Positions 4,742 through 51,317 of a stretch of DNA of 64,000 bases are shown in pieces (the stretch's first letter is position 1; each line of letters starts with the position of its first letter). The notes beneath the pieces are model-generated. The model ran no database searches, was not told where the DNA came from, and saw only the letters and a list, made by a program, of their open reading frames with translations. The translations under genes were made by a program, and so were the position numbers. Location: NCBI RefSeq assembly GCF_002777825.1, contig NZ_MEIR01000080.1, positions 186,001-250,000 of the forward strand, read 5' to 3'. Origin of the DNA: Snodgrassella alvi (GTDB lineage: Bacteria; Pseudomonadota; Gammaproteobacteria; Burkholderiales; Neisseriaceae).

Positions 4742-5229
4742 GAATTACCCTGTTCTTCTTTTATTAGTCCCTCATAGAGACTCTGCATTTCCAATACTTT
4801 ACTTCGTGAAGGCTTACGCCGCACTGAAGTATAACCCTGAATGACACCATCACGGATATTTGGCACAATAGTTGCATATACCCAGTAAAAGCCTCCATCT
4901 TTGCGCAGATTTTTGACATAGCCATGCCATTTGTTTCCTTTTTGCACGGTATCCCATAAATCTTTATAGGCCACTTTCGGCATATCAGGATGGCGCAAAA
5001 TATAATGCTCAGCACCCATTAGCTCATTACGCGACCATCCACTCATATGCACAAATACCTCATTGGCATGTGTAATTATGCCCTTCAGGTCTGTCGTTGA
5101 TGTAATCAGACAGCCATCAGGAAATTCTGTTTCTACATCAGTACAATATACGGTGCGTGTAACCCCATCGTAATGTGTCAATTCAAATGTACGGTGCTCA
5201 ATTTCAGGCACCTGCATTGGTGAAATCAT
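4738..5229 (-). CDS. Aer-type PAS domain protein, soluble and single-domain
   Basis: A 163-residue protein that is nearly all one PAS domain (about residues 38-135). Family features are ITHANEVFVHMSGWSRNEL, the HPDMPKVAYKDLW stretch and KNRKDGGFYWV-like residues (KNLRKDGGFYWV), typical of the FAD-binding PAS of the aerotaxis receptor Aer. No membrane segment, HAMP domain or methyl-accepting domain follows, so it cannot itself be a chemoreceptor. Cofactor binding is inferred from resemblance. It is the first gene of a two-gene unit with the PhnD-like protein and presumably senses redox state, oxygen or a small molecule for it. Confidence 0.78.
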   Translation of the reverse strand: MISPMQVPEIEHRTFELTHYDGVTRTVYCTDVETEFPDGCLITSTTDLKGIITHANEVFVHMSGWSRNELMGAEHYILRHPDMPKVAYKDLWDTVQKGNKWHGYVKNLRKDGGFYWVYATIVPNIRDGVIQGYTSVRRKPSRSKVLEMQSLYEGLIKEEQGNS

Positions 5230-5460
5230 TATGACTCCATTTTCTTGAATATGGACAACTAGGCAAACAATACAAAAGTCAATTCAAGGTATATATTGCG
5301 CCGATTAGCAAAAGAATACAAATTATTTAATAAATAAGTACATAAAACTACAATTTTTATTGACATGAATCAATAAATGCAGAATTTAATATAAAAAATT
5401 TACTACTTTAATTAATCGGATATAACATATACTAGGGCAGTTGTTTAATTAAATTGCAGG

Positions 5461-6513
5461 CTATCTACTTATCCTTTTTCTTGCAGAATCAGATTGATAC
5501 AGACCGGCCCATTTCATGATATTAGCTACCTCAAACTCATTAAATTCATAATACTGGCCGCGTTTCAGCCTTTTAGGTAGTGCAATCGGTCCGAAGCGAA
5601 CCCTAACCAGGCGGCTTACAGTCAGTCCCTGACTTTCAAACAAACGTCTTACTTCACGGTTGCGGCCTTCTTTAATGATAATGTTGTACCATCTGTTGGC
5701 ACCTTCACCACCCTGTTCCCACAAATGTTGTGCTTTGGCAATACCATCTTCCAGTTCAACCCCATTGAGCAGGCTTTGTTTTTGTTCATCACTCAGCTCA
5801 CCGAGAACGCGTACAGCATATTCTCGTTCCACTTCGAAACTAGGATGTGCGAAGCGATTTACCAATTCACCAGAAGTGGTGAGTATCAACAGGCCACATG
5901 TATTGATATCCAGACGACCAATCGCTACCCATCGGCTGCTGGCAGTTTGTGGCAGCCTGTCAAAGATACTGACGCGTCCCTGAGGGTCGTCGCGGCTGAC
6001 AATTTCACCTTCCTGTTTGTAATACACCATAATACGCGGCAAACGATCAGGCCATTTGATGTTAATGGCTGAACCGCGCACACTAACCTCATCGTCTGGG
6101 GTAATTCTGTCTCCTAACTGAGCCACTTTACCATTAACCCGCACCATTCCCTGGCTAATCCACTGTTCCATTTCACGCCGAGAGCCCACACCAGAAGCAG
6201 CAAGTGCTTTTTGTAGGCGCACTGGTTCCATTTTTTCCAGATCGATACGCTGTTCTTTCAGTACCCGAGCACGCTGTAAAATTTCCTGATTTGGTGTACG
6301 CTGAACCAGTTTTTTGGCGCGCTGAACTTTTACTTTGGCGCCGCCCTGTGTTTCAGGCTGAGAGAATGCAGAGCGTACAGTGGATTCATTTTGGCGTTTA
6401 AAAGCAAATTTAGCTTTACCGGCAGTATGTCTGCTGGCAGTATGCTTACTGCTTTTGTTGGTCACACCATCACGTATCTGGCGCTTGGTTAATTTTTTGT
6501 TGGCTTGACTCAT
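5461..6513 (-). CDS. rluB: 23S rRNA pseudouridine synthase RluB
   Basis: Converts U2605 (E. coli numbering) of 23S rRNA to pseudouridine. An S4 RNA-binding domain lies at about 97-150 (VRLQKALAASGVGSRRE). The catalytic RsuA-family domain carries GRLDINTCGLLILT with the catalytic Asp at 202, and the C-terminal part has KEGRNREVRRLFE. The first ~90 residues are a Lys/Arg/Gln-rich, low-complexity extension that may help bind rRNA; such extensions also occur in other betaproteobacterial homologues. The start lies 2 nt after the stop of scpB, so the two are co-transcribed. The family assignment is firm; the exact uridine is by analogy. Confidence 0.9.
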   Translation of the reverse strand: MSQANKKLTKRQIRDGVTNKSSKHTASRHTAGKAKFAFKRQNESTVRSAFSQPETQGGAKVKVQRAKKLVQRTPNQEILQRARVLKEQRIDLEKMEPVRLQKALAASGVGSRREMEQWISQGMVRVNGKVAQLGDRITPDDEVSVRGSAINIKWPDRLPRIMVYYKQEGEIVSRDDPQGRVSIFDRLPQTASSRWVAIGRLDINTCGLLILTTSGELVNRFAHPSFEVEREYAVRVLGELSDEQKQSLLNGVELEDGIAKAQHLWEQGGEGANRWYNIIIKEGRNREVRRLFESQGLTVSRLVRVRFGPIALPKRLKRGQYYEFNEFEVANIMKWAGLYQSDSARKRISR

Positions 6514-25872: not shown

Positions 25873-26125
25873 TTATCTATTCCTGATTATTGAACTGTTT
25901 TACTGGTTTCGCATCACGAAACTCGCCGAATTTCACTCACGTAAGTTAACACACAAAATAAAGTCACATTTCATAAATAACAATAGTTTACTATCATTGT
26001 TGCACTATCACCATAATAGCTGACACCCCAAACGGACAGGCTTAATTCTGATTCCTGCCAATCACCACTTGTCAGCATCCCGATTTTTTCTGACAATCGG
26101 AACCCTGCTATCAAGGACTTTCGAC

Positions 26126-26983
26126 ATGATTATCGTAATGCAGCGTCAGGCAACAGCAACCCAGATCAACAACGTCATCGCCTTTATCCGCCAGCGCGGA
26201 TTGCATGAACACATATCGCACGGCGAAGAACGCACTATTATCGGCGCAGTTGGTGACGAAAGAGTATTTGAACCACGCGAGCTTGAAGCACTCGCCGGCG
26301 TCGAAAAAGCATTGCGCATACTACAGGACTGGCGCATCATCAGCCGCGAAACTCAGCCGCAGGACACCATCATCACCGTGCGCGGCCAGCAGTTCGGCGG
26401 CCAGCACTGTCATCGGGTAGCCAGCACCACTGGCTTACAACTTCCAGAAAACAACAACATATTTATCGACCCTTTCTACCAGACTGCCTCACCCTATACA
26501 CCACCACAGCAAACAGGTACTAACGTGCTGCAACAGATTAAACAGGCACATCAGGCCAATAAATCCGTCTGGTTACGTATCAGAGATGTGCGCCAGCTCG
26601 AACCTGCCTTACAAGCAGAAGCAGATATTATTTATCTGGGCGGAGAACTGATGTCCAACCGTGCCCTGCTCAATGAAGTAGGTTGTCTGAATATCCCGGT
26701 AGTATTGTGCAAAGACAAACATCATCAGGTTGACGACTGGCTGATTGCTGCCGAACACATCGCCCTCAAAGGCAACCATCACCTGATGCTGGGTGAAGCC
26801 GGAACATTAAGCCTTGAGCGCAATGCCCCATACAGGCTCGATGTAGAAGCCATTGTTAAGGCCAGACAAATTACCCATTTACCTATTGTTGCCAATATTT
26901 CCCACCTTGCCCATGCCTATATGAATAGTGCAACACTCACACAACTGGCACAGGCAGCAGGTGCCCATATTATTATTAATTAA
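26126..26983 (+). CDS. DAHP-synthase-like protein (AroF/AroG type I-beta) lacking catalytic motifs
   Basis: A 285-residue protein. Residues 1-70 match the ferredoxin-like regulatory domain of type I-beta 3-deoxy-7-phosphoheptulonate synthases (MIIVMQRQATATQI, then GAVGDERVFEPRELEAL). The rest follows the barrel of the enzyme (DIIYLGGELMSNRALLNEVG, WLIAAEHIALKGNHHLMLGEAG, THLPIVANISHLAHA), but the key motifs are replaced. The metal-binding GPC motif is absent, KPRT is lost, KRG reads KDK, CERG reads LGEAG, DPSH reads NISH and the EVHP end is missing. It is therefore probably not an active synthase; a regulatory or diverged role is inferred. The start has AAGGA 9 nt upstream. Divergent from the exporter. 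Confidence 0.72.
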   Translation: MIIVMQRQATATQINNVIAFIRQRGLHEHISHGEERTIIGAVGDERVFEPRELEALAGVEKALRILQDWRIISRETQPQDTIITVRGQQFGGQHCHRVASTTGLQLPENNNIFIDPFYQTASPYTPPQQTGTNVLQQIKQAHQANKSVWLRIRDVRQLEPALQAEADIIYLGGELMSNRALLNEVGCLNIPVVLCKDKHHQVDDWLIAAEHIALKGNHHLMLGEAGTLSLERNAPYRLDVEAIVKARQITHLPIVANISHLAHAYMNSATLTQLAQAAGAHIIIN

Positions 26984-27209: not shown

Positions 27210-27385
27210 AAACACTCATTTAGCTAACCCAAACCTGCTAATCCGACTATCTGACGCAGAGCCAACAGTCCATCACAATAGATGTATTCGCGTACCAAAA
27301 ATCGCTGTTTACATCTATTAAATCTTACCGGATGAAGATGCATTGGCAACGTGTCAGTCGGACTACTAGAACATAAGAGGTTGAT

Positions 27386-29158
27386 ATGCAACTTTCAGGT
27401 GCACAAATACTCGTGCAGAGTCTCAAAGCCGAGAATGTAGAATATGTTTTCGGATATCCAGGCGGAGCAGTTCTCGAAATTTACGACGCCATCTTTCAGT
27501 TAAAAAAATTTCGCCACATACTCGTCAGACACGAACAGGCCGCAGTTCACGCTGCCGATGCCTATTCACGTGCCAGTAATGGTGAAAAAATCGGCGTAGC
27601 ACTGGTTACATCCGGCCCGGGTGCCACCAATGCCATCACCGGCATTGCCACAGCCAATTCCGACTCAGTACCCCTCGTAGTTATTTCCGGACAGGTTGGC
27701 ACACCCGCCATTGGTTCCGATGCCTTTCAGGAAGTAGATACCGTTGGCATTTCCCGCCCCTGTGTCAAACATAATTTTCTGGTAACACACGTTAGCGAAC
27801 TGGCCGAAACCGTAAAAAAAGCATTCCAGCTTGCCCGTACCGGCCGGCCCGGAGTAGTGGTTATCGATGTACCTAAAGATGTTACACAGGCAATGGCAAA
27901 ATTCAGCTATCCACAGGAAGACATCAACATCCGCTCCTATCAGCCCGTTACCCACGGGCACACCGGCCAGATAAAAAAAGCAGCACAGGTAATGGCTGCG
28001 GCCAAACGTCCGATTATTCTGTTTGGTGGCGGCGTGATACTGGGCAATGCCAGCAATGTCCTCACTGACTTCATCCAGTCTACCGGCACCCCCTGTGTAT
28101 CCACCCTGATGGGATTGGGCGCATTCCCCAGCACTAATCGTCAGTTTCTGGGCATGGTAGGCATGCATGGCTGCTATGAAGGCAATCTGGCCTTGCAAAA
28201 CGCAGATGTTGTACTGGCCGTGGGCGCACGCTTTGATGACCGCGTTATCTCTGTACCAGATAAATTTACCGATGATGGCAAAAAAATCATCCATATCGAT
28301 ATCGATCCCTCCAGCATTGCCAAACGCGTTAAAGTAGATGTGCCAATTGTTGGCGATGTAAAAAACGTCCTTGCTGATTTACTCGCCCTGTGGCAGAAGC
28401 AGAATCTGACTTTCAACAGTAATGCACTGGAAAGATGGTGGAAAACTATCGAAAACTGGCGCAGCTATAACAGCCTGTGGTTTGACAGCACAGGCGAATC
28501 CATCACACCGCAACAAGTAATCCAGACACTGGCCAAACTTACCAGCAATAATGCACTCATTACCTCTGATGTTGGCCAGCACCAGATGTTCACAGCCCAA
28601 TACTACCCATTTCAACGACCGCGCCAGTGGCTTAATTCCGGCGGTCTGGGCACCATGGGCGTAGGCTTACCTTATGCCATGGGCGCCAAACTGGCCAAAC
28701 CAGAGGAAGACGTATTCTGTATCACCGGTGAAGGTTCCATTCAAATGAACATACAGGAACTATCCACCTGTTATCAGTATCGCCTGCCCATCAAAGTGAT
28801 CAACCTGAATAACGGTTTTCTCGGCATGGTTCGCCAATGGCAAGAGTTATATTACGAAAATCGCTACTCAGAAACCTATATGGAATCATTGCCTGACTTC
28901 GTCAAACTAGCCGAAGCTTACGGCCATGTCGGTATCCGGGTTGAAAAAGCAGCCGATATAGAAGGTGCCCTGAAAGAAGCCATTGCCCTGAAAGACCGGC
29001 TGGTATTCATGGACTTCATTACCGACCGTACCCAGAATGTCTACCCGATGGTAGGCAATGGCAAAGGACTGGACGAAATGGTATTACCACCGCATATGAG
29101 TACCCCCCCAACTACCGCAGGCAGTGACCGCGAACAGAATAGCCGGAGTGCATCATGA
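27386..29158 (+). CDS. ilvI: Acetolactate synthase large (catalytic) subunit
   Basis: A thiamine-diphosphate enzyme joining two pyruvates, or pyruvate and 2-oxobutyrate, at the first common step of valine, leucine and isoleucine synthesis. Features at 590 residues: GYPGGAVLEIYDAI, the catalytic Glu in LVRHEQAAVHAADAY, the FAD/central domain with GARFDDRV, and the ThDP motif GEGSIQMNIQELSTC to NNGFLGMVRQW. A GAGG site lies 5 nt upstream of the ATG. It overlaps ilvH by 4 bp (ATGA). Could equally be named ilvB. Confidence 0.95.
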   Translation: MQLSGAQILVQSLKAENVEYVFGYPGGAVLEIYDAIFQLKKFRHILVRHEQAAVHAADAYSRASNGEKIGVALVTSGPGATNAITGIATANSDSVPLVVISGQVGTPAIGSDAFQEVDTVGISRPCVKHNFLVTHVSELAETVKKAFQLARTGRPGVVVIDVPKDVTQAMAKFSYPQEDINIRSYQPVTHGHTGQIKKAAQVMAAAKRPIILFGGGVILGNASNVLTDFIQSTGTPCVSTLMGLGAFPSTNRQFLGMVGMHGCYEGNLALQNADVVLAVGARFDDRVISVPDKFTDDGKKIIHIDIDPSSIAKRVKVDVPIVGDVKNVLADLLALWQKQNLTFNSNALERWWKTIENWRSYNSLWFDSTGESITPQQVIQTLAKLTSNNALITSDVGQHQMFTAQYYPFQRPRQWLNSGGLGTMGVGLPYAMGAKLAKPEEDVFCITGEGSIQMNIQELSTCYQYRLPIKVINLNNGFLGMVRQWQELYYENRYSETYMESLPDFVKLAEAYGHVGIRVEKAADIEGALKEAIALKDRLVFMDFITDRTQNVYPMVGNGKGLDEMVLPPHMSTPPTTAGSDREQNSRSAS

Positions 29159-41812: not shown

Positions 41813-44737
41813 ATGGAAAATAATAATATTGATGCATCAATTAAAGAACTTAGTCAAATTACACGTGATGATGGGAATGAAAAATATGCAGATGCTCAAT
41901 TTGGATTAGGATTTATCTACGATGATATAAAACACGATTATGATCAGGCTGAAGCTTATTATTTAAACATCACCAGAGAAGATTGTCCCGAGGCTTATGC
42001 TAATGCCCAATTTAATTTAGGACTCCTTTATATAAAAATAAAATACGATTATGATAAGGCTGAAGCTTGTTACTTAAATATCATCAGAGAAAACTGTCCT
42101 GATGCTTATGCTCATGCGCAATTAAACTTAGGAAATATTTATAGTGAAATAAAAGGCCATTATGATAAGGCTGAAGCTTGTTATTCAAATGTTATCAGAG
42201 AAGACTGTCCTGAAGTTTATGCTCAAGCTCAATTTAATTTAGGACTTCTTTATAATGAAATAAAAAGCGATTACGATAAGGCAGAGAATTGTTTCTCAAA
42301 TATCACCAGAGAAGACTGTCCTGATGCTTATGCTAACGCCCAATTAAATTTAGGATTTTTGTATAAAAATATAAAATGCGACTATGAAAAGGTTGAAGCT
42401 TGTTTCTTAAATATCATTAGAGAAGACAATCCTGAGGCTTATGCTAATGCCCAATTAAATTTAGGACTTCTTTTTGATGAAATAAAAGGCGACTACGATA
42501 AGGCTGAAGTCTGTTACTTAAATATCACCAGAGAAGATTGCCCTGAAATTTATGCTAATGCCCAATTAAATCTAGGAATTATCTATAATAATATAAAAGA
42601 CAATTATGATAAAGCTGAAGCCTGTTATTCAAATATCACCAGAGAAGACAGCCCTGAGGCTTATACTAACGCTCAATTCAATTTAGGACTTCTTTATAAT
42701 GAAATAAAACAAGATTATGATAAGGCTGAAGTCTATTACTCAAATATCACCAGAGAAGACCATCCTGAAATTTATGCTAGAGCTCAACTCAATTTAGGAC
42801 TTTTCTATGATGAAATAAAACACGATTATAATCAAGCTGAAGTTTATTACTCAAATATCGCCAGAGAAGACTGTCCTGAAGTTTATGCTAATGCCCAATT
42901 AAATTTAGGATACTATAATTATATAAAAGACAATTATGAAAAGGCTAAACGCTGTTTCTCAAATATCATCAGAGAAGACAACCCTAAAATTTATGCTGAA
43001 GCTCAATTACAATTAGGACATCTTTATAATGAAATAAAACACGATTATGATAAATCCGAAGCCTATTACTTAAGTATCACCAGAGAAGACGATCCTGATA
43101 TTTTTACTAGCGCTCAATTTAATTTAGGATTTTTCTATACTGATATAAAACCCGACTATGCTAAAGCTGAGGCCTATTACTTAAATATCACCAGAGAAGA
43201 CCATCCTGATAATTATGCTAATGCCCAGTTTAATTTAGGATTTTTTTACTATAATAAAAAACACGATTATGATAAGGCTGAAGCCTGCTGGATAAATATC
43301 ATCAGAGAGGATAGTCCTGAAGCTTATGCTCGAGCTCAATTTAATTTGGGTTTTATTTATGAATATAAGAAAAATAATTTGGTTAAAGCCATTGAGTCTT
43401 ATTCAAATATTTTAGAAAGTGACTATCAGGAAGCTTATTCTAAAGCTCAGTACCAGCTAGCTAATATTTATTTTTTTCATAAAAACGACAGCAATAAAGC
43501 CCGAGATTATTATAATAAAATCAAATATTGCAGTTCTACGTCTTATATTTATGTTTCCGCCAGAGTAATATCAGAACTAATTGATACTAATTCCAACCTT
43601 ATTTCAAATAAAGAGAATTTAAAAGAATCAATTCTTGCTAATATTAAAAATATTTGTACGTCAGTTAATGATATAAAAAATAGATTATTGGTTTCTTTCA
43701 ATCTAAACAACTCACCTAATGGTAACACAGAGGTAAAGGCGCCGGAACGGCGCGTTGCCCATTATACCAAACCGGCAGTCTTGTTTAATCTGCTTAAAGG
43801 AAAAAATCCCAGTAAATTCCGGCTGAATATCGTCGATTTTATGAATGATCCCAATGAAAATCAGGTATTAACCAACTGGCTGAATATCACTAATAATTCG
43901 GATAATGAAATCAAAAGTTTTTTAGCCAGTTTTTCTTTTAATCATAATTCTTTAAACCAGTTCCGTTTATACGGTAATGAAGATAATATCTCTGGCTCTG
44001 GCGTGAGTATTGCTTTTAATCAGAATTTTTTTGGTCTGGATACAGAACGCAGTATCAGTAATGAAATAGCACTAGTAAGCAGCATTAAGCCTATTATGTC
44101 CATCGACAATAAACAAATAAAACTTGAAACTATACAAACAGAAAATAAAAGTAACGATACACTTCATCCTCTGCCTTTATATCGTTGCCTGTATTTTGAC
44201 CCAAAAACTGAATATATGGCTTTAGCCAAACGCAATAAACAATCGTTTTCTCTGGAAATGTATGATGAAGAAAACAAAACTTTTGACATAGACGCCAAAT
44301 GGGAAAATTATATTGAAAAATTAGAAGAAGAAAAAAGAATAAAAGAAATTCGCAAAGAGTTAAAAAACATAAAAGATTTAATGGAAGAGTTTTTAGAAAA
44401 TGCAGAATTGCAAAAGATATCCAATCTGGAGCAATTGCTTAGTTTGGCCGTCTTACCCATTTCCTGTCTGATAAAACATGCTGCTTTTGAAGATGAAGAT
44501 GAATGTCGTATGATTTATATCACTCATATTGCAGATAAAAAAATTGTAGAACCTCAAGACTACCAGTCCACTACTAGTCTATACGTTGAATACACTAATG
44601 TAGAAAATCATATTGATATTATTTATTTAGGCCCGCAGTGTAAATTACAGCATAAATTATGGCTGCAAAACCATTTCAAGAAAAAACAGCGTGGGAAACA
44701 AATCAAGCTGATTAAGTCTGAAATGCCGCTGCGTTAA
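41813..44737 (+). CDS. Large TPR/Sel1-like repeat protein with C-terminal DUF2971-like domain
   Basis: A 974-residue protein without signal peptide or membrane helix, so probably cytoplasmic. Residues 16-569 are 15 tandem copies of a 37-residue unit (one copy has 36); a typical unit contains AYANAQFNLGLLYNEIK and YDKAEACYLNITRED. The LG..Y and A-rich spacing is that of TPR/Sel1 solenoids, which bind proteins. After a linker (to about 640) comes a domain resembling DUF2971: VAHYTKPAVLFNLLK, FMNDPNEN, SLNQFRLYGNED, GSGVSIAF and later KHAAFEDEDECRMIYI. A Lys/Glu coiled coil lies near residues 835-865. DUF2971 has no settled function to my knowledge. The gene is AT-rich and stands alone. Confidence 0.75.
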   Translation: MENNNIDASIKELSQITRDDGNEKYADAQFGLGFIYDDIKHDYDQAEAYYLNITREDCPEAYANAQFNLGLLYIKIKYDYDKAEACYLNIIRENCPDAYAHAQLNLGNIYSEIKGHYDKAEACYSNVIREDCPEVYAQAQFNLGLLYNEIKSDYDKAENCFSNITREDCPDAYANAQLNLGFLYKNIKCDYEKVEACFLNIIREDNPEAYANAQLNLGLLFDEIKGDYDKAEVCYLNITREDCPEIYANAQLNLGIIYNNIKDNYDKAEACYSNITREDSPEAYTNAQFNLGLLYNEIKQDYDKAEVYYSNITREDHPEIYARAQLNLGLFYDEIKHDYNQAEVYYSNIAREDCPEVYANAQLNLGYYNYIKDNYEKAKRCFSNIIREDNPKIYAEAQLQLGHLYNEIKHDYDKSEAYYLSITREDDPDIFTSAQFNLGFFYTDIKPDYAKAEAYYLNITREDHPDNYANAQFNLGFFYYNKKHDYDKAEACWINIIREDSPEAYARAQFNLGFIYEYKKNNLVKAIESYSNILESDYQEAYSKAQYQLANIYFFHKNDSNKARDYYNKIKYCSSTSYIYVSARVISELIDTNSNLISNKENLKESILANIKNICTSVNDIKNRLLVSFNLNNSPNGNTEVKAPERRVAHYTKPAVLFNLLKGKNPSKFRLNIVDFMNDPNENQVLTNWLNITNNSDNEIKSFLASFSFNHNSLNQFRLYGNEDNISGSGVSIAFNQNFFGLDTERSISNEIALVSSIKPIMSIDNKQIKLETIQTENKSNDTLHPLPLYRCLYFDPKTEYMALAKRNKQSFSLEMYDEENKTFDIDAKWENYIEKLEEEKRIKEIRKELKNIKDLMEEFLENAELQKISNLEQLLSLAVLPISCLIKHAAFEDEDECRMIYITHIADKKIVEPQDYQSTTSLYVEYTNVENHIDIIYLGPQCKLQHKLWLQNHFKKKQRGKQIKLIKSEMPLR
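41858..43519 (+). repeat. 15 tandem in-frame repeats of 111 bp
   Basis: The coding repeats of the TPR protein. Neighbouring units are also similar at DNA level (for example CCAGAGAAGACTGTCCTGA recurs with few changes), one unit being 108 bp. The array is a likely site of copy-number change and of assembly error. Confidence 0.85.
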
Positions 44738-49865: not shown

Positions 49866-51317
49866 TTACAGCGCATTTGTTTTCTTCGAACTGACTTTAT
49901 TTTTACGCTTTACCTGCTTTTTCGATTGTTTAACCTGCTCACGCTTGGCAATGCGGTTACTTAGCTTAACCCGACGCAAGGGTTGCGCTGGTTTACCGTC
50001 TTTTTCTTCATAGGGATTTTTATTTACATTATATTGAATACGTAAAGGTGTTCCCTGCAAATGAAATGCTTTGCGAAAGGTTTGTGTCAGATAACGGGTA
50101 TAAGCATCACTGATATGTTGCAAGGCATTACCATGTATAACAATGACTGGCGGATTCATGCCTCCCTGATGTGCATAACGCATCTTGGGGCGAATCAGTC
50201 CGGCACGGGGAGGTTGCTGCCGCTCCAGCGCACTTTGTAGCACACGGGTTATTTTCGGCGTTGATAACTTAATCATTGCCGCATCGTAAGCAGCCTGAAT
50301 CGAGCTGAAAAGCCCGTCAATTCCTTTTTCTTTTAACGCGGAAATAAAATGGAATTTGGCAAAATCCAGAAAATACAGTTTACGCGCAATATCCCTTTTT
50401 ACCTGCTGCTTGCGCTCATCACTTAGTCCATCCCATTTATTAACTGCCACCACCAGCGCACGGCCTGCCTCTAAAGCAAAGCCGGCAATGGTGGCATCCT
50501 GATCAGCTATGTCCTGCTGGGCATCCAGCACCAGCACAGCTACATTAGCGGCCTCAATTGCCTGCATTGCCTTAATCACGGAAAATTTTTCTATTGCATC
50601 ATCAACCTTGCCGCGACGGCGTACACCGGCAGTATCAATAATGGTAAACGGTTTATCACCACGCTCAAAATCAATATGAATCGAATCGCGGGTAGTACCG
50701 GCCATATCAAAAGCAATTACCCGTTCCTCGCCCAGTATGGCATTCACAAGGGTTGATTTACCCACATTCGGCCGGCCAATAACTGCAAAAACCGGATGAT
50801 GGCTTTCAGCTTCCTCTTCTTCATCAGGAAATGTTTCCAGCACTGTTTCTATCAGTTCATAAACGCCGTCACCATGCGCACCAGAAATAACCACCGGTTC
50901 ACCAAGACTCAGTTCATAAAATTCAGCAGCCAGAACAGGACGGTTACCACCCTCACCTTTATTAACGGCCAGATACACCGGACGGGTACTCTGGCGCAGA
51001 CGGTTAGCAATAATCTGGTCTTGCGGTGTTAAACCGGTACGTCCATCTACCAGAAAAATAACCGCATCAGCCTCATCAATAGCTTGTAGTGTATGTCGAG
51101 CCATTTCATACAGGATACCGCTGTCTACTACCGGCTCAAAGCCTCCGGTATCCACCACCAGATAAGGTTTAGTCCCTACCCGGCCATGGCCATAATGACG
51201 GTCACGAGTCAAACCGGGTAAATCAGCAACCAGTGCATCCTTGGTACGGGTCAAACGGTTAAATAATGTTGATTTGCCTACATTCGGGCGACCAACCAGA
51301 ACAATCGTTGGTTTCAT
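49866..51317 (-). CDS. der: Ribosome-associated GTPase Der (EngA)
   Basis: An essential double-GTPase for 50S subunit assembly. The two G domains begin [14 protein letters not shown] (near residue 9) and [15 protein letters not shown] (near 190), followed by a KH-like domain and a very basic tail rich in Lys ([12 protein letters not shown]). The start at 51317 ([12 protein letters not shown]) is the family one; the frame continues 14 codons upstream without homology. 135 nt separate it from yfgM, with an inverted repeat in between. Confidence 0.95.

Follow-up and report, generated by a model that had tools for sequence, protein, structure and literature searches.

The closest solved chains, by sequence, to the protein described here are those of type I-beta DAHP synthases, namely a chimera (4grs) and the T. 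maritima enzyme (1rzm and 1vr6). An active type I-beta DAHP synthase holds its metal through four ligands, Cys, His, Glu and Asp, and in DAHP synthase the KPR motif, the Arg of GAR, the KRG motif and the Arg of ERG bind PEP and phosphate. Some KDO8P synthases work without metal, their metal Cys being replaced by Asn. We read the name AroGA as that of the type I-beta enzymes (COG2876). HisZ, a non-catalytic member of an amino-acid pathway, descends from an enzyme, HisRS, and would resemble our protein in this. The abstract of PMC9734150 describes HisZ as the regulatory subunit of ATP phosphoribosyltransferase; complex formation, reported for HisZ, is hypothetical for our protein. Another degenerate type I-beta protein tied to PheA occurs in Shewanella, where, according to an excerpt of PMC1173090, a type I-beta DAHP synthase pseudogene is fused to PheA; it differs from the present case in being a fusion and in being called a pseudogene.

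For N. meningitidis, a section of PMC4735112 gives a single DAHP synthase, of type I-alpha and inhibited mainly by Phe. Further Neisseria genes are treated as DAHP synthase in passages of PMC10634446 and PMC3046118. In the latter, a gene inserted just before dhpS and called aroA or DAHP synthase is present in some meningococci and gonococci and missing from others, and in the former NEIS2494, beside folP, is a 'putative phospho-2-dehydro-3-deoxyheptonate aldolase'; according to an extract of PMC4981724, strains Z5463 and Z2491 differ in two genes, of which NEIS2494 is one. In 2025, a study quoted here from an excerpt (PMC12054151) found 'DAHP synthase (AroGA)' to be specific to N. mucosa versus N. 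subflava and interpreted it as aromatic amino-acid synthesis. A folP neighbour in a gonococcal locus of our set (L034), together with the gene name, suggests that NEIS2494 and the pre-dhpS gene are orthologues of the gene studied here, and from its name we infer that the AroGA of N. mucosa belongs to the same family. Among the papers listed by our searches of the open-licence PMC literature, none was seen to describe this gene as a pseudoenzyme.

Results and Discussion

A type I-beta gene with a complete regulatory domain

The window, by which we mean the whole stretch of DNA analysed, comprises 64,000 nucleotides of Snodgrassella alvi and contains the following features:

26126..26983, + strand: gene for a putative pseudo-DAHP synthase of the type I-beta lineage (ATG start, 285 amino acids, TAA stop)
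26113..26117, + strand: ribosome-binding site AAGGA, read in the sequence
26126..26326, + strand: residues 1-67, the ferredoxin-like (FL) regulatory domain (PF18152), in which H29 and S31 are invariant

The original prediction of a DAHP synthase-like pseudoenzyme had claimed an intact frame with a good ribosome-binding site and a well-kept N-terminal regulatory domain, and both claims held, the open reading frame and the AAGGA being where they were expected and the DAHP synthase ferredoxin-like domain of Pfam (PF18152) matching residues 1-67 over its full model length with 78.9 bits (cut-off 27). The match of the Pfam barrel model PF00793 was restricted to residues 151-277 (40.4 bits), and the five NCBIfam DAHP synthase models that matched the 285-residue protein all scored far under their own cut-offs (NF006421, 147.9 against 335 bits; TIGR01361, 86.2 against 267.75 bits). 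Residues 1-284 could be aligned to residues 1-296 of the 338 of T. maritima DAHP synthase (1rzm). Among named relatives, Snodgrassella gandavensis and S. alvi came nearest, at 96%.

Around the gene, no Rfam score came near the gathering threshold, and the promoter and terminator signals detected were no commoner than in shuffled sequence. Phage families gave no match to the protein at E 0.001. In a plasmid collection 23 records matched, and among the 20 listed two chromosome-size gonococcal records stood at 51.5% and the other 18 at 24.5-30.4%.

A complete DAHP synthase elsewhere in the genome, a search for which had been suggested with the original prediction, was found. The window's genome carries two further PF00793 genes, one being AroG of type I-alpha on contig C59 (33088-34104; TIGR00034, E 9.9e-166) and the other KdsA on contig C82, over the cut-offs of three KDO8P synthase models. 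Its PheA lies on contig C85, with a PDT match at 50304-50834.

Distribution and selection in the Neisseriaceae

Counting the window's own, 58 of 83 Neisseriaceae genomes had a match at E 0.001 or better, as had 50 of the 71 good-quality ones. Internal stops were absent from all 58 matches, 57 of which spanned at least residues 1-281 of the 285, the remaining one (G042) lying at a contig end. We fetched 57 loci, consisting of 56 of the 57 loci beyond the window and one gonococcal record, which together with the window gave 58 aligned rows and 57 distinct proteins. Frameshifts in relatives, put forward with the original prediction as a sign of decay, were looked for across the Neisseriaceae and did not occur, since all 57 fetched loci read through in an open frame from the homologous ATG to the stop. 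An AGG or GGA was located 4-18 nucleotides 5' of the start codon in 53 of the 58 rows.

Nei-Gojobori dN/dS was calculated for 16 chosen pairs, 13 of which lay at 0.015-0.106 and one at 0.248 (L079/L080), while two had saturated dS; both the FL domain and the barrel were constrained. The view that the gene in Neisseriaceae encodes a pseudo-DAHP synthase under purifying selection is thus supported by the comparison of sequences. As an observation apart, the Neisseria pair L079/L080, of the gonococcal group, had a dN/dS of 0.25 overall and 0.37 in the barrel, and L034 had a long branch; selection may be relaxed near the pathogenic Neisseria (L079, L080 and L034).

The gene was absent from 25 of the 83 genomes (21 of the 71 of good quality). 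Among these 25, AroG is still found in 24, PheA in 23 and ilvB in 23, so that none of the three depends on the gene. Over the whole set, 80 of 83 genomes had type I-alpha AroG (TIGR00034 over cut-off) whether or not they carried the pseudoenzyme gene, 79 had PheA, and 81 had ilvB at E 0.001 (80 over cut-off). Co-occurrence across the 83 genomes gave no partner signal from AroG, PheA or ilvB, because all three are near-universal and presence or absence can therefore yield no partner.

Lost catalytic residues and newly fixed residues

According to the original prediction, the barrel had lost the metal Cys, KPRT, KRG, CERG, DPSH and the EVHP end. Most of this was confirmed: the protein has neither the metal Cys nor KPR, it lacks the Arg of both GAR and ERG, the first two residues of KRG (Lys and Arg) and, towards the C-terminus, the Glu and Asp ligands, and this catalytic set is missing from all 58 Neisseriaceae rows. 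Two elements proved to be retained, namely the Glu of ERG, which is kept as E224 in 58/58 rows, and, in the window protein, a His at the place of DPSH (H260) that just 12/58 rows of the family have. Counted over the four metal ligands, Cys occurs in 0/58 rows, His at the aligned place in 12/58, Glu in 0/58 and Asp in 1/58. Neither the K or R of KPR nor the R of GAR occurs in any row; the Lys of KRG is replaced by Cys in 57 rows and by Tyr in one, the next Arg by Lys in all 58, and the Arg of ERG by Ala or Ser in all 58. Of the properties of an active type I-beta DAHP synthase, the protein thus has the FL domain, found in the T. maritima subtype, and lacks the metal ligands, the PEP- and phosphate-binding residues and scores over the NCBIfam cut-offs.

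At or near the lost sites, the following motifs are fixed in the family:

26468..26476, + strand: D115-P116-F117, end of strand 2, in the GGAFKPR region (D115 and P116 58/58, F117 53/58)
26576..26593, + strand: R151-x-R153-D154-x-R156, end of strand 3 (R151 and R153 58/58)
26708..26725, + strand: C195-K196-D-K-H199-H200, replacing KRG (C 57/58; K196, H199 and H200 58/58)
26792..26803, + strand: G223-E224-A/S-G226, replacing CERG (G, E and G 58/58; residue 225 is Ala in 50 and Ser in 8)

An intact reference sequence (L193) has Glu and Met at the positions of R151 and R153. Further invariant barrel residues among the 58 rows are Y124, G172, R237 and D239, and a conserved motif is absent from strand 1. 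In the FL domain H29, S31, G33, E35, T37, D44 and R46 are invariant (58/58), and in the alignment H29 and S31 are also found at the matching places of T. maritima DAHP synthase, where we presume them to form the Tyr site. Conservation of the changed residues in relatives had been proposed as a check on the original prediction, and random differences between strains as grounds for abandoning it; across the 58 Neisseriaceae rows, the changed residues were near-uniform and no such random pattern emerged.

Predicted fold and the conserved face of the barrel

An AlphaFold2 model built on 43 sequences (pLDDT 87.8, pTM 0.74, residues 129-131 below 50) predicts the following fold for the C-terminal part:

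26411..26980, + strand: degenerate barrel, residues 96-285, modelled with eight strands and lacking helix 1 and helix 8

The helices predicted to be missing are those between strands 1 and 2 and after strand 8. Foldseek placed 4grs at the top (E 2.4e-24, TMq 0.81), followed by T. maritima chains, and VIA-align gave a Z of 27.3 for 4grs_A (rmsd 3.6, 280 residues aligned) and 26.3 for 1vr6_C (277 residues), at 26-28% identity, the structural alignment stopping at residue 297 of the 338 of T. maritima. KDO8P synthases had Z values of 21.9 and lower in the same comparison, against 27.3 for DAHP synthase, and KdsA models were not among the protein's NCBIfam matches, whereas the true KdsA of the genome passes three. 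The window protein shares domain order, FL domain and fold with T. maritima DAHP synthase and differs from it in that helix 1 is unmodelled, the last 41 or so residues are absent, and CKDxHH, DPF and RxR stand in place of the catalytic set.

We compared conservation between parts of the barrel, taking as its C-terminal face the ends of strands 2-7, positions which we chose ourselves from the secondary structure of the model. The mean column entropy of this face was 0.50 bits, compared with 1.45 bits elsewhere in the barrel (Mann-Whitney p 1.4e-7) and 1.33 bits in the helices (p 1e-5); that of the FL domain was 0.95 bits. As placed on the predicted structure, conservation in the barrel is highest on the face of the former active site, and we conclude that the pocket at the barrel mouth is one that was rebuilt and then held.

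Probable descent from pheA-linked type I-beta genes

With an alignment profile, homologues were found in 59 of 61 Chromobacteriaceae genomes. A tree was made from 101 chosen rows, fragments being left out, of which 52 came from Chromobacteriaceae (51 distinct sequences, with near-copies remaining), 23 from other bacteria and 26 from the 58 Neisseriaceae. The 26 Neisseriaceae formed a single clade (SH-aLRT 100) nested among the type I-beta rows of Chromobacteriaceae, the exact sister being unsure since the method was a quick one and carried a long-branch warning for the two Chromobacteriaceae rows that meet the clade. The stem leading to the clade is long, at 2.84 changes per column. The metal Cys was present in all 23 other rows and missing in 40 of the 52 Chromobacteriaceae rows, and at least three changes of Cys state are required on the tree.

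Eleven catalytic positions were read in the non-Neisseriaceae rows, in which some species appear twice. Thirty rows, duplicated species among them, were intact, and the others had many different losses, with the Cys changed to A, S, G, P, T or V and, in part, the Lys of KRG to H, Y, Q, T, R or L. Across the pheA-linked loci L120-L125, L128-L130 and L222-L261, the metal Cys had been lost repeatedly, in several residue combinations and mostly with long open frames kept. Purifying selection acts on Cys-less types of the Chromobacteriaceae as well, dN/dS being 0.02-0.12 in 10 pairs of three types and 0.08 in an additional pair (L228/L229); in the Chromobacterium clade five pairs gave 0.14-0.25. 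All 61 Chromobacteriaceae genomes also carry another PF00793 gene that scores higher, at 310 bits or more, the copy in G507 having three internal stops; we infer this gene to be AroG, its type being assumed.

In all 40 Chromobacteriaceae loci examined for neighbours (L222-L261, out of 59 genomes with a match), pheA lay 5' on the same strand at a distance of 71-3511 bp, and it was upstream as well in nine named loci (L120-L125 and L128-L130) of partly overlapping species. The query pheA, taken from L121, encodes chorismate mutase, prephenate dehydratase and ACT domains, with PF00800 and PF01817 confirmed. Outside this family, in another order of the class, locus L292 carries an intact-looking type I-beta barrel (4822-5886, + strand) just upstream of a PheA gene (PF00800, PF01817), so that the association with pheA may predate the Betaproteobacteria.

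Taken together, the sequences suggest that the Neisseriaceae protein descends from a pheA-linked type I-beta DAHP synthase of Betaproteobacteria. The Cys-less Chromobacteriaceae paralogues 3' of pheA (Aquitalea, Paludibacterium and Chromobacterium) resemble it in lineage, in the replaced Cys and in the FL domain that was kept; they differ in that many are full length and retain part of the PEP site, and in that their changes vary by type, whereas those of the Neisseriaceae are nearly uniform. These intermediates give the impression of genes retained after their function was lost, and not of a gain. The gradient in neighbouring families, from intact through Cys-less to fully rebuilt, provides a natural series for the change from enzyme to pseudoenzyme.

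Possible role of the protein

It is strongly supported by the residues lost that the protein would be unable to make DAHP. Our best explanation, which we hold to be about as likely as not, is that the gene encodes a conserved pseudoenzyme acting as a non-catalytic, aromatic-responsive regulator of the aromatic pathway. A type I-beta ancestor would have lost its metal site and most of its substrate-binding lysines and arginines, while the N-terminal aromatic amino-acid sensor, the FL domain, was kept and the barrel mouth was rebuilt into a new conserved pocket. The FL domain may bind an aromatic amino acid, probably Tyr, the rebuilt pocket may bind a phosphorylated or carboxylated metabolite, and the signal might then be passed to an enzyme of the aromatic pathway, PheA or AroG being the likeliest. 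In favour of a regulator are the intact FL domain, the loss of the catalytic set in 58/58 rows, purifying selection, pheA-linked descent and the supply of AroG from elsewhere in the genome. Of the properties expected of a regulatory pseudoenzyme that works like HisZ, kinship with an enzyme, catalytic loss, purifying selection and a working enzyme for the same reaction in the cell were found; a physical complex and an allosteric effect would belong to them too. Against it count the absence of the gene from 25 of the 83 genomes, the lack of a constant neighbour and of a co-occurrence signal, the absence of pheA from the 57 fetched Neisseriaceae stretches, the possibly relaxed selection in L079/L080, the long-branch warning on a quick tree, and the finding that within the barrel conservation peaks in the pocket and not on an outer surface, which would suit an enzyme as well as a sensor.

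Since it is the old active site, and not an outer surface, that the conserved residues of the barrel line, the reading of the protein as a new enzyme is a serious rival, even if we consider it rather unlikely. The eight-stranded barrel would then use new catalytic residues (C195, K196, H199, H200, E224, R151 and R153) for some other reaction, still gated by the FL domain, in which a newly acquired metal or a Cys acting as nucleophile might take part. A near-invariant Cys and invariant Lys, His, His, Glu and Arg at or beside the active-site positions of DAHP synthase are what such an enzyme would show, as are a C-terminal face more conserved than the rest of the barrel and a long stem followed by conservation; on the other hand, the neighbours suggest no reaction or substrate, the gene is dispensed with in 25/83 genomes, strand 1 offers no motif, one row has Tyr for Cys195, and the Chromobacteriaceae intermediates speak for loss with retention. 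Slightly more doubtful still is the fuller proposal that the barrel was remodelled to form a new site, catalytic or metal-binding (Cys-Lys-x-x-His-His, the Arg pair and the Glu), under control of the old aromatic sensor domain, giving a new Neisseriaceae enzyme family that is masked by its DAHP synthase annotation and was reached via Cys-less intermediates surviving in the Chromobacteriaceae. Should the protein prove to be a sensor, or an enzyme of a new kind, the DAHP synthase interpretations given to the Neisseria genes would change.

The remaining explanations are improbable to differing degrees. Regulation of branched-chain amino-acid synthesis through the neighbouring ilvBHC, which we judge improbable, starts from the adjacent gene:

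27386..29158, + strand: ilvB, a neighbour judged to lie outside the system (TIGR00118 match)

The ilv operon had been noted as a neighbour in the original prediction, and it is one: ilvB starts 402 nucleotides 3' of the gene on the same strand and is followed by ilvH and ilvC (Pfam). A nearby ilvB occurs in 17 of the 57 fetched loci, from three genera (Snodgrassella, g4 and g6, the last with an open reading frame in between), and comes directly after the gene in 16 of them. The other 40 loci have no ilvB nearby, however, and the gap of 360-402 nucleotides, where the two are adjacent, contains a leader hairpin of ilvB, which 75 of 83 genomes have whether the gene is present or not; together with pheA as the neighbour in Chromobacteriaceae, this weakens a functional tie to ilv. 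The same stretches offered no other partner, in that pheA occurred in 0/57 fetched Neisseriaceae stretches (about 6.5-17 kb) and clustering of the neighbours of the 57 loci and the window gave no constant adjoining gene, an AsmA gene being often divergent in the Neisseria group and folP lying 3' in gonococcal-type loci (Pfam identifies the two genes in L034). Plain decay of a dying aroF copy is very unlikely. It would accord with the weaker constraint on some Chromobacteriaceae copies (the five Chromobacterium-clade pairs at 0.14-0.25) and with variable presence in Neisseria, seen in our own genomes and in a passage of PMC3046118; for the Neisseriaceae it is refuted by open frames with 0 internal stops in 58 matches, fixed substitutions and low dN/dS, and it could hold for single Chromobacterium copies. 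Less probable even than decay is that DAHP is still made by an altered, metal-independent route, for which KDO8P synthase, with its Asn in place of the metal Cys, would be the precedent; beyond the Cys, the KPR, the GAR Arg, the Lys and Arg of KRG, the ERG Arg and both C-terminal ligands are gone as well.

A candidate RNA hairpin upstream of ilvB

The candidate cis-regulatory RNA hairpin upstream of ilvB lies at 27277-27319 (+ strand) of the window. It has an inner GCG/CGC stem with the loop UACCCNAAAY (in the window, UACCAAAAAU), and its outer stem covaries. A 19-nucleotide pattern of the hairpin was found in 22 of 83 genomes, once in each, compared with 0 for the reversed control. An RNA model derived from 13 sequences at 12 places, one of which is the window, matched 76 of 83 genomes at E 0.01, and in 75 of them, those of the model itself included, the match was 72-87 nucleotides upstream of the ilvB profile match; eight of the 83 RNA-model matches were located elsewhere. 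RNAalifold, run on 12 longer sequences, gave 11 pairs, eight of which were changed on both sides, with the three inner pairs invariant and each outer pair broken in 2-4 of the 12 rows. Rfam searches of the window (E 1) and of five relatives (E 0.5) gave no match overlapping the hairpin. Since it occurs with or without the pseudoenzyme gene, we conclude that the hairpin belongs to ilvB.

Farther along the window, positions 41813-44737 (+ strand) encode a protein of 974 amino acids with N-terminal tandem repeats of about 38 residues (NITREDCPExYANAQLNLG...), which several TPR models match, and with a non-repeating C-terminal part.
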